From Mycolicibacter virginiensis (lineage in GTDB: Bacteria > Actinomycetota > Actinomycetes > Mycobacteriales > Mycobacteriaceae): a stretch of 64,000 nt of DNA. Of this stretch, positions 1-1,976 are shown in pieces. The stretch covers positions 2,480,001 to 2,544,000 of the forward strand of contig NZ_CP092430.2 of NCBI RefSeq assembly GCF_022374935.2, in the 5' to 3' direction. Made by a program: the position numbers and the translations under genes. A model generated the notes under the pieces. It was not told the origin of the DNA. It searched no databases and was given only the letters and a program-made list of their open reading frames with translations. How positions within the stretch are numbered: position 1 is the first letter of the stretch; the number at the start of each line of letters is the position of its first letter.

Positions 1-1010
1 TTCGCGTGGGCGGCGAGCGTCACCACCGGCGATGCAGGAAGGTCTAGTTCGTCGCCGACGTCGCCGGGGCGGCGCGTGGGGCTCACCCGGTCGAGACGAA
101 GTGCCAGGTGGGGAATGCGGTCATCCTCCAAATCCCGCATGAATTGCAGGAGTACGTCGCTCTTCCCGGTACCTGCGGCGCCGTCGACGAGCACGATACG
201 GTGCGATTCGACGAGTTCGCGAAGCTGCTGAGCTTCGGTACGCACGATCAGTTGACCGCCGATCAAGGTCTGCTCTCGCGAGGCGCGGAAGCGGGAGTTG
301 GCGGCGTCGACTTTGACCGCCAGGCCGTGTCCCCTGCGCCACAAATTCGGTTCGTAGCGCTTGCCGCGTAACTCACGCCACAGGTCTGCGGCGGTCAGGT
401 ACTCGCCGGCGTGATCGCGCACAAGCTCGGTCATCACCGCGACCACGTGGTCGAGGTCGCCGGTCAACGCCACTTCGGCTTGCAACCGAACCATCGCCTT
501 CAGTTGGTCGTCGCCGATCGTGGCGACTTCAATGCGGCGCAGCGCGCTGAACGCGACTTCAGCACCAGGGTCGCCCCAGAGCTTGCACAGCTTGTCGAAC
601 TTGGCCCTCCATTCAGGCGCCTTCAGGTAGACGTCGACGAACTGCTCCGCCGACGCCGCGAGGCGGGCCCGGTCGGCCAACTCACCGAGCGCGTCGGTGG
701 CGTGGGTGGACGCGAAAACGCACTGGGCCCGAGGGTCGCGCAACTTTGTGAAGAACGTGCTGAGCACCCCGGCAGACTCGAGTGCCGTCAGATTCCACAC
801 ACCTTCGCGGGTGCGTTGCCGCTTGCACTGGTGGTAGACATCGCGGTCGGAGTACCGCAACACGAACTCGACTCCGTCGTCGCCGGGTCCCGACGGCTCG
901 AGGTCGATCGCCTCGGCCACGTCGTCGAGCACGTCGAACACGTACCGGGCGGTCCAGCGGTCCTCAAAACGATTGCCCAGCTTGTCGGAGAGCCCGCCCG
1001 GCATCGGCAT
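1..1010 (-). CDS. Cap4-like nuclease / P-loop NTPase, putative anti-phage defence protein (partial, C-terminus outside window)
   Basis: The minus-strand frame is open from 1010 to the left edge, so 336 N-terminal residues are visible. Residues 5-130 resemble the Cap4/Mrr-type PD-(D/E)xK dsDNA-nuclease domain: a GNRFEDRW helix near residue 12, then E48 and the Q61-x-K63 core (HQCKRQ). After a helical linker comes a Walker A motif GAAGTGKS with K283, preceded by a hydrophobic strand (RIVLVD), as in STAND/NACHT-type ATPases. An N-terminal Cap4 nuclease fused to a STAND NTPase is the known architecture of some Avs (AVAST) immune sensors; membership here is inferred, since the sensor region is not visible. 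The start is ATG at 1010 or ATG at 1004; an in-frame stop lies about 100 nt upstream and no other start codon intervenes. No clear Shine-Dalgarno sequence is seen. Other large nuclease-ATPases remain possible. Confidence 0.75.
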   Translation of the reverse strand, partial: MPMPGGLSDKLGNRFEDRWTARYVFDVLDDVAEAIDLEPSGPGDDGVEFVLRYSDRDVYHQCKRQRTREGVWNLTALESAGVLSTFFTKLRDPRAQCVFASTHATDALGELADRARLAASAEQFVDVYLKAPEWRAKFDKLCKLWGDPGAEVAFSALRRIEVATIGDDQLKAMVRLQAEVALTGDLDHVVAVMTELVRDHAGEYLTAADLWRELRGKRYEPNLWRRGHGLAVKVDAANSRFRASREQTLIGGQLIVRTEAQQLRELVESHRIVLVDGAAGTGKSDVLLQFMRDLEDDRIPHLALRLDRVSPTRRPGDVGDELDLPASPVVTLAAHA

Positions 1011-1199
1011 GTGCTCAGTGTACGGAGGAGCGGTTGTGCGTCTGCGACACCAACGGGCCCGACGTGGGTTTGCTCGCTGCGGGTTCCGTCGTCGCGCAGA
1101 CCCGACGGGTCAGCTCAGCCGTTCGTTGTCCTTTGGGTCGCGTAGCCGGCGCGCGATCTAGTCCAGCAGGAGCTGAGCGGACGCTCGACCAGTGCTCCG

Positions 1200-1229
1200 G
1201 GATGAGTTCGAATCTCACCGAGGCCACCA
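1200..1229 (+). other. Orphan tRNA 3' end (putative att site / island border)
   Basis: The segment reads as a T-arm (stem ATGAG/CTCAC with one mismatch, loop TTCGAAT), then a 7-nt acceptor 3' strand CGAGGCC, discriminator A and encoded CCA. The matching 5' acceptor strand GGCCTCG is not found in the preceding 120 nt and no D- or anticodon arm can be folded, so this is a 3' fragment rather than a gene. Such fragments are left at the distal border of elements that integrate into tRNA 3' ends. The orientation puts the element to the left, over the defence-like gene. Confidence 0.6.
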
Positions 1230-1412
1230 CAAACGTCACGTCGACGCCGCCTGTCTGAACAGCGCAACCGCGCATCTCGATTTGCTATAGCGCGCGCTTT
1301 GCTCACGGACGGCTCCTGGCCACGAGCCCCGAACGATTCGCCATTGTCGCCCCTACCGACACCGCCGAACCTAAACTCGGGCACGCCGCGACTGGGCAGC
1401 CGAGGAGGGCCA

Positions 1413-1976
1413 TTGAGGAAATCCGTGCTGGGTGTGCTGGTGCTGCTGCTGGGCGTGTCGGCCGGCTTTCTGGTGTGGACCTCGACCAAAACGCACGACA
1501 CCACACACGTGCCGGCCAAGGCGCGCGGGCAATACGACGATGCGTCAACCGGCCATGACGGCGGAGTCGGCGGCAACCTCATGCAACGCGACCCGCTGCA
1601 GGAGCTTGCGCGCGAGCCCAGCTATGACGATTGCGAATCGTGCCATCTGCCGTTTGTGCCGTTTTTCGGGACGCGGGCCGGGTTCAACTGCGAGATCAAC
1701 TACCGGCGTGGCGAACTGCCCGATTCGGCTTACTGCATGTCGGTAAATCCGCCGCAGCATGTATCGATGGACACCGATGGAGAGTTGTCGATTTGCCGTG
1801 ACGGCGTTAACTGCTTGTCCAATCCCCCGTTCGATCAACCGATCCTCCCGTTCGGCCAGAGCGCCGGCGCCGGACCGTTCACCTGCCAATCGGACGCCAC
1901 TGGCGTGACATGCACCGTGGACTCGTCGGGACGCGGGTTCGTCATCTCAAAGGCGGGGATCGAACCCGTCGGCTGA
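1413..1976 (+). CDS. Secreted or membrane-anchored Cys-containing mycobacterial protein, unknown function
   Basis: No function is recognised. The chosen start is TTG at 1413 because a strong GAGGAGG lies 5-11 nt upstream; the frame is open back to 1299 but that stretch lacks protein-like composition. The product (187 aa) begins with basic residues and a hydrophobic segment (about residues 5-25) without an obvious cleavage site. A polar ectodomain follows with several cysteines (DDCESCHLP, FNCEINY, AYCMSV, ICRDGVNC, FTCQSD, VTCTVD) that probably form disulfides outside the membrane. The end has a conserved-looking GRGFVISKAGIEPVG. It is the first backbone gene right of the presumed island border. 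Confidence 0.6.
   Translation: MRKSVLGVLVLLLGVSAGFLVWTSTKTHDTTHVPAKARGQYDDASTGHDGGVGGNLMQRDPLQELAREPSYDDCESCHLPFVPFFGTRAGFNCEINYRRGELPDSAYCMSVNPPQHVSMDTDGELSICRDGVNCLSNPPFDQPILPFGQSAGAGPFTCQSDATGVTCTVDSSGRGFVISKAGIEPVG

Follow-up and report, generated by a model that had tools for sequence, protein, structure and literature searches.

The stretch analysed here (the window) comprises 64,000 nucleotides of Mycolicibacter virginiensis and corresponds to G000:C1:2480001-2544000 of a single-contig 4.98-Mb genome. At its left edge begins a gene on the minus strand whose 1491-aa protein, P0001, combines in one polypeptide an N-terminal effector, a central STAND NTPase and what appears from sequence comparison to be a long C-terminal part, which is the layout of the Avs kind of phage sensor. 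The gene lies within an island at a tRNA-Leu gene (Table 1), and we read its product as a probable single-gene anti-phage sensor.

The gene and its N-terminal nuclease domain

The initial annotation had seen the gene only up to the window edge. Leftward, the frame continues to 1491 aa, 4476 bases without an internal stop (G000:C1:2476535-2481010 including the stop codon), and ends at a stop at L003:12535. A database gene call on the same chromosome, P0002, has 1381 aa and begins at residue 111; because this call loses the nuclease active site, the STAND nuclease gene is easily missed. The start at window position 1010 (minus strand) is, judged by the homologues, better than that of P0002, since they are nearly 1491 aa long; three close ones are 88, 82 and 80% identical and nearly equal to P0001 in length.

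Conservation was counted in an alignment, A1, of P0001 and 56 homologues (29-88% identity), that is, 57 of 70 proteins, 13 partial or outlying ones having been removed beforehand. E48, Q61-x-K63 and K283 of the Walker A motif, the residues from which a nuclease-NTPase defence gene had been predicted, stand where they were placed and are conserved in A1. Since they are invariant or nearly so across this alignment, the motif residues are not there by chance. Further residues of the nuclease part, E38, H60 and R64, are invariant along with Q61 and K63 (57/57), and E16 is retained in 54 rows, replaced by Q in one and missing in two.

An AlphaFold2 (AF2) model of residues 1-336 (mean predicted local distance difference test score, pLDDT, 91.2) has a helix at 7-28, strands at 34-37, 49-52 and 57-62, then helices and a strand at 95-101. 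E48 directly precedes strand 2, Q61 lies inside strand 3 and K63 just past it, a modelled placement as expected for PD-(D/E)xK enzymes. The best structural matches of the model are Avs3 (8dgc, over residues 1-336), tied with HerA-DUF4297, and then LmuA, Hachiman and Cap4; PDB entry 9n00, a relative considered below, is not among the structural matches listed for this model (VIA-align). The spacing of E48/Q61/K63 equals that of D40/Q53/K55 in DUF4297, i.e., acid-x(12)-Q-x-K. According to the DUF4297-HerA report (PMC11291478), D40/Q53/K55 are the residues mutated there, and defence was lost in the mutant. The domain is thus predicted to have both the PD-(D/E)xK fold of Cap4 type and the acid-x(12)-Q-x-K active site, and its earlier assignment to the PD-(D/E)xK nucleases holds, the structural matches placing it among those of Avs3, DUF4297, LmuA and Cap4.

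In a wider table of 76 proteins, column 48 is without an acid in P0069, P0070 and P0072-P0077. A DD pair aligned at columns 44-46 in P0069 and P0072-P0077, not in P0070, is probably the column-48 acid motif shifted by a gap, to judge from its place before strand 2.

Table 1. Features of the P0001 gene and its island. Plain positions are those of the window; residue numbers are those of P0001.
Feature	Position	Strand	Basis or remark
STAND nuclease gene, 5' part (residues 1-336)	3..1010	-	open reading frame open at window edge
Remainder of STAND nuclease gene, left of window	G000:C1:2476535-2480002		
Cap4/DUF4297-type PD-(D/E)xK nuclease domain (predicted), ~residues 1-225	336..1010	-	AF2 model, structural matches over 3-220
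E48, putative metal-binding acid, motif II	867..869	-	E 56/57, D 1/57 in A1
Q61-x-K63, putative catalytic QxK, motif III	822..830	-	57/57 rows of A1
STAND NTPase start, residues ~240-336 of ~240-660	3..293	-	nSTAND1, NACHT below Pfam cut-offs; A1 profile to 9n00_A over 12-656
Walker A, residues 277-284	159..182	-	G277, A279, G280, G282, K283 57/57 in A1
tRNA-Leu(caa), left of window	L003:11893-11969		
Left part of island, including integrase-like remnants	L003:11943-16000		
Right-hand part of 5.26-kb tRNA-Leu island	1..1233	.	direct repeats, nearly empty site in G022, integrase remnants
Right island end, imperfect copy (29/31) of tRNA-Leu(caa) 3' end	1203..1233	+	5260 bp from tRNA's own end

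The STAND NTPase, the C-terminal half and a solved relative

The Walker A motif of P0001 runs from G277 to K283-S284, and D346, Q347 and D349 of the Walker B region are invariant (57/57). With these residues and the nSTAND1 and NACHT features of the full-length protein, which fall below curated cut-offs, the suggested STAND ATPase is supported. Of the two outcomes named beforehand as refuting the initial annotation, a full-length protein devoid of STAND/NACHT features and an N-terminus placed elsewhere than among PD-(D/E)xK nucleases, neither occurred. Among PDB sequences, HEAT chains, including designed alphaRep proteins that are HEAT-like, are also matched by the A1 profile, for the most part around residues 1290-1385; we consider with moderate confidence that the C-terminal half is HEAT-like. 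The least conserved segment is 661-960 (2.14 bits per site vs 2.61 in the NTPase), and the conservation profile points to no ligand site.

The A1 profile matches the chain 9n00_A (E 4e-61) over 12-656 and again over 977-1492, with 657-976 unaligned. PDB entries 9n00, 9n01 and 9yix ('AAA family ATPase', 1523 aa) resemble P0001 in length class, in having a nuclease and an NTPase, and in the C-terminal part, although 9n00 belongs to a distant branch with a QCKKN motif and with DSLD where the P0001 family has DQLD. P0073 is close to 9n00 over its whole length (1758.8 bits), and both P0072 and P0073 lie outside the main clade of the NTPase tree described below. Homology of the 9n00 type, as detected by the profile, extends over the nuclease, NTPase and C-terminal parts of P0001.

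Exchange of the N-terminal effector

Relatives with other effectors were matched with the A1 profile, the database size being set to 1000. A Nostoc plasmid protein (L101:2404-7038, 1544 aa, annotated SEFIR) is matched over 246-612 and 596-1492 at E 5e-105; its effector matches the SEFIR (E 1.2e-13) and TIR_2 (E 5.8e-11) families. P0070 has PNP_UDP_1 at its N-terminus (E 2.2e-13) and a profile match over 230-1157 (E 2e-96). The Streptomyces protein P0062 is matched over 2-1492 and carries 269 additional N-terminal residues that include a trypsin domain (E 1.9e-8); in the table of 76 proteins its nuclease lacks E38, E48, Q61 and K63 together.

In an NTPase tree of 72 rows, P0062 falls inside a 17-row clade (100/99) of nuclease-bearing proteins, mostly Streptomyces where named, and the SEFIR and PNP rows pair (100/98), where long branches in the SEFIR, PNP and distant rows mean that their joining may be false. 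Given the well-supported branches, the effector label must have changed at least twice; P0074-P0077 are labelled nuclease from the QVK/QAK motif alone, and a fourth non-nuclease row, G187, has no recognisable effector upstream of the NTPase. The effector has thus been exchanged on a conserved NTPase-sensor scaffold, as in the Avs kind and as in the evolution of sensors whose outputs can be replaced. Nothing else indicates so strongly that residues ~240-1491 serve as a signalling scaffold rather than as an accessory to the nuclease.

This scaffold also bears on what P0001 senses. Like Lamassu or Hachiman, it could respond to nucleic acid, such as foreign DNA ends or plasmid or conjugating DNA, with the nuclease degrading DNA or killing the cell upon any invading DNA. 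We regard this as improbable: a STAND NTPase at the centre, followed by a long C-terminal half, is the layout of protein-ligand sensors, not of a helicase or an SMC-like DNA sensor, and the scaffold is common to SEFIR, phosphorylase and protease effectors, none of which needs a DNA substrate. Sensing of a phage component by an Avs-like protein is the reading that we prefer.

Relation to named Avs types

How far P0001 is 'Avs-like', as the initial annotation had it, depends on what is compared. The layout and the effector exchange agree with the term; membership in Avs2, Avs3 or Avs4 by sequence along the length is not supported. Up to E 10 the A1 profile matches 54 PDB sequences, none of which is Avs3 (8dgc). 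Avs3 likewise joins a Cap4 nuclease to a STAND module but is a longer chain (2028 residues), whereas the C-terminal half of P0001 looks HEAT-like by sequence. Matches to Avs4 (8dgf; 257-312, E 0.4) and Avs2 (9o4e; 266-306, E 0.56) are confined to the P-loop region, and the PADLOC Avs2 model PDLC02165 has no match in the genome at E 0.001. The PADLOC library contains Avs1 and Avs5 models as well. In DUF4297-HerA, a HerA hexamer separate from the nuclease supplies the ATPase, whereas P0001 has it fused as a STAND module. The family profile extends to a distant relative, P0075, at E 2e-25, mainly over the NTPase, the nuclease and C-terminal matches being weak or insignificant. P0075 is a PDC-M54A protein of full length (1786 bits); PDC-M54A is not among the four PADLOC matches of P0001.

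We place P0001 in a known kind, the antiviral STAND proteins, in a family outside the Avs types tested and carried on a mycobacterial tRNA island. The literature searched contained no description of this family and nothing specific on 9n00, PDC-M54A or mycobacterial Avs, a search mostly without reach into subscription papers, so that absence from print is unproven.

Spread of the family

The homology search returned 69 proteins, mostly full-length and down to ~30% identity, and the profile search 75, with only the ~8000 candidates sharing most words being scored in each. In genome contigs, a relative was encoded in 195 of 353 pattern-matched stretches, of which 79 loci were kept; by record title, these belong to Actinomycetota, Cyanobacteria, Chloroflexota, Planctomycetes, Verrucomicrobia, Acidobacteria, Pseudomonadota, Armatimonadetes and others. 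The system is not specifically mycobacterial, as had been thought possible, its relatives occurring in many phyla. Segatella also has a relative. Among related genomes, the distribution is rare and patchy: the family was found in the organism's own genome and in 0/60 sampled others of the genus and order, and in 6/296 genomes of a phylum sample, the own genome included (E 1e-30).

Other identities were rejected. A common phage gene would have matches among the 50,697 phage records, and there were none (E 1e-5), chromosomal prophages lying outside this set. As a common plasmid gene, it had only seven matches in 72,556 plasmid records, all below 60% identity. An ordinary restriction enzyme does not fit the STAND core, and no methylase-like open reading frame (ORF) was seen in the island.

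The tRNA-Leu island

With a duplicated tRNA 3' end and an empty site in a relative, the region is a tRNA-integrated mobile island. In that relative (G022), the flanks, 91% and 89% identical to those of the island, lie 451 bp apart vs 5350 here, with a single copy of the tRNA end. Neither the island, in which the gene stands alone, nor the HEAT-like C-terminal half was within view of the initial annotation. The flanking genes encode an ANTAR response regulator and a MASE7 cyclase, which we take to be ordinary mycobacterial backbone, in agreement with that annotation. Adjoining the island is a cysteine-rich ORF (window 1299-1976, plus strand) with a hydrophobic stretch near its N-terminus and no Pfam match.

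Between tRNA and gene (L003:12138-12483) lie broken tyrosine-integrase-like pieces, with an HTLRHTA motif in another frame. Two results on them are weak as evidence: a Pfam scan gave no family, and the match to the VWB integrase has E 0.6. Support for their identity comes from four integrase-like proteins, two with Pfam confirmation, that belong to other islands at this tRNA. Piece 1 is 38.6% identical over 44 aa, weakly so, at 28.1 bits vs a best of 26.9 in 200 shuffles; piece 2 (HTLRHTA) reaches 47% over 32 aa at E 2.6e-6 in this four-protein database, without a shuffle control.

The P0001 gene might then be stranded, non-functional cargo of a decayed integrative element, as the integrase beside the tRNA seems to survive only in short broken pieces and the gene is missing from every one of the 60 sampled relatives. 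This is quite unlikely, given the uninterrupted frame, the intact motif residues and the close homologues of nearly equal length, for which reasons the coding sequence looks maintained.

Seven further tRNA-Leu sites of the genus were picked because a second tRNA end or a distant flank match suggested insertion; six of these carry two copies of the tRNA end, and tRNA-Leu is a busy integration site. Pfam was run on ten ORFs of these other islands: L091 and L093 each have an integrase next to the tRNA, L093 has in addition a capsid gene, and L096 has a PrimPol gene; the three islands look like phage satellites or prophage remnants. The site in G077 (L090:1993-5722) has what looks like a further defence pair, a gene with an ApeA N-terminal domain (E 5e-18) next to one for a GHKL ATPase in which VRR_NUC is weakly matched. 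ApeA is a phage-defence protein.

So busy a site, with two other islands bearing Pfam-confirmed integrases and one of these a phage capsid gene, would also suit a protein that serves the mobile element itself, as a superinfection-exclusion or element-retention device against rival elements. No partner-like gene of at least 130 aa was seen between the direct repeats, and such a role is compatible with anti-phage sensing, not exclusive of it; taken separately, we consider it very improbable. Anti-phage sensing by P0001 remains the reading pursued below.

Discussion

We propose, with a probability of roughly 0.78, that P0001 is a single-gene Avs/NLR-like anti-phage sensor: a phage component is recognised, the NTPase switches, the nucleases cut DNA and the cell dies. 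By analogy, the C-terminal half (~660-1491) would recognise a conserved phage component made during infection, and recognition would switch the STAND NTPase (~240-660) to an ATP-bound oligomer. Oligomerisation may pair the N-terminal Cap4/DUF4297-type nuclease domains (1-225), whose indiscriminate cleavage of double-stranded DNA would destroy that of phage and host alike, so that the host cell would die before phage release, an abortive outcome. By sequence and structure, the proposal has behind it the domain layout, the intact active-site and Walker motifs, the exchangeable N-terminal domain, the defence-gene neighbourhoods of relatives and carriage on a tRNA island. We infer the ligand class, the oligomer, the DNA substrate and the abortive outcome from Avs and DUF4297 precedents, namely Avs1-Avs4 as summarised in PMC12931631 and the DUF4297-HerA work cited above.

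For the neighbourhoods, ORFs of at least 130 aa were picked mechanically at 59 of the 79 loci; the nearest on each side (108 ORFs) were compared with the sixth on each side as control (73 ORFs), where present. PADLOC families matched at E<=1e-10 numbered 128 for the near ORFs vs 13 for the far ones, figures that count families, not proteins, in sets of unequal size and that are inflated because a single methylase can match many models. The 25 near-set families displayed include type IIG and III restriction-modification, Hhe, type IV restriction, dGTPase and Druantia. A TrwC relaxase gene is found 177 bp from the copy in Mycolicibacterium sp. CH28 (L004:6534-11018). On plasmids, a Sinorhizobium relative (L103:2857-5712) adjoins multiubiquitin, ThiF-family, DUF6527 and recombinase genes, and a Herpetosiphon relative an integrase-family gene and a Tn3 transposase gene.

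The limits of these family counts weigh against our proposal, as do several other observations. The near ORFs also include triosephosphate isomerase, tRNA synthetase and transporter domains, and a Rhizobium plasmid relative has ordinary metabolic neighbours. Pfam matches on P0001 stay below curated cut-offs, both for nSTAND1 (259-417, E 4e-4) and NACHT (271-417, E 0.0065) and for HEAT (1354-1377, E 1.4e-4, 22.2 bits vs a cut-off of 23.5). The structural alignment with Avs3 has a root-mean-square deviation of 11.8 over 285 residues, and the two therefore do not superpose as one body. PADLOC gave only four weak matches on P0001, the best being PDC-S01 at 0.0012, with no Avs model among them, at a nominal limit of 10 that is no full test, as HMMER filters discard most matches above E 0.1. 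Furthermore, the element that carried the gene looks decayed.

A broader proposal, which we hold at even odds, is that P0001 represents a family in its own right, spread over many phyla, of NLR-like bacterial sensors that are encoded by single genes and fall outside the named Avs types. Its members would share a conserved STAND and helical-repeat scaffold on which the weapon (DNA nuclease, protease, TIR/SEFIR or nucleoside phosphorylase) has been exchanged more than once, would recognise a conserved phage component new as an immune trigger and, in mycobacteria, would travel on tRNA-Leu islands.

Animals and plants recognise patterns of their pathogens, and Avs proteins show that bacteria recognise conserved phage proteins in a comparable way. 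A further family of Avs build, outside the Avs types tested and with a solved distant relative and exchangeable effectors, would offer a direct route to new conserved phage triggers. Besides, phage therapy is of practical interest in mycobacteria, and P0001 adds a candidate innate defence for these bacteria.
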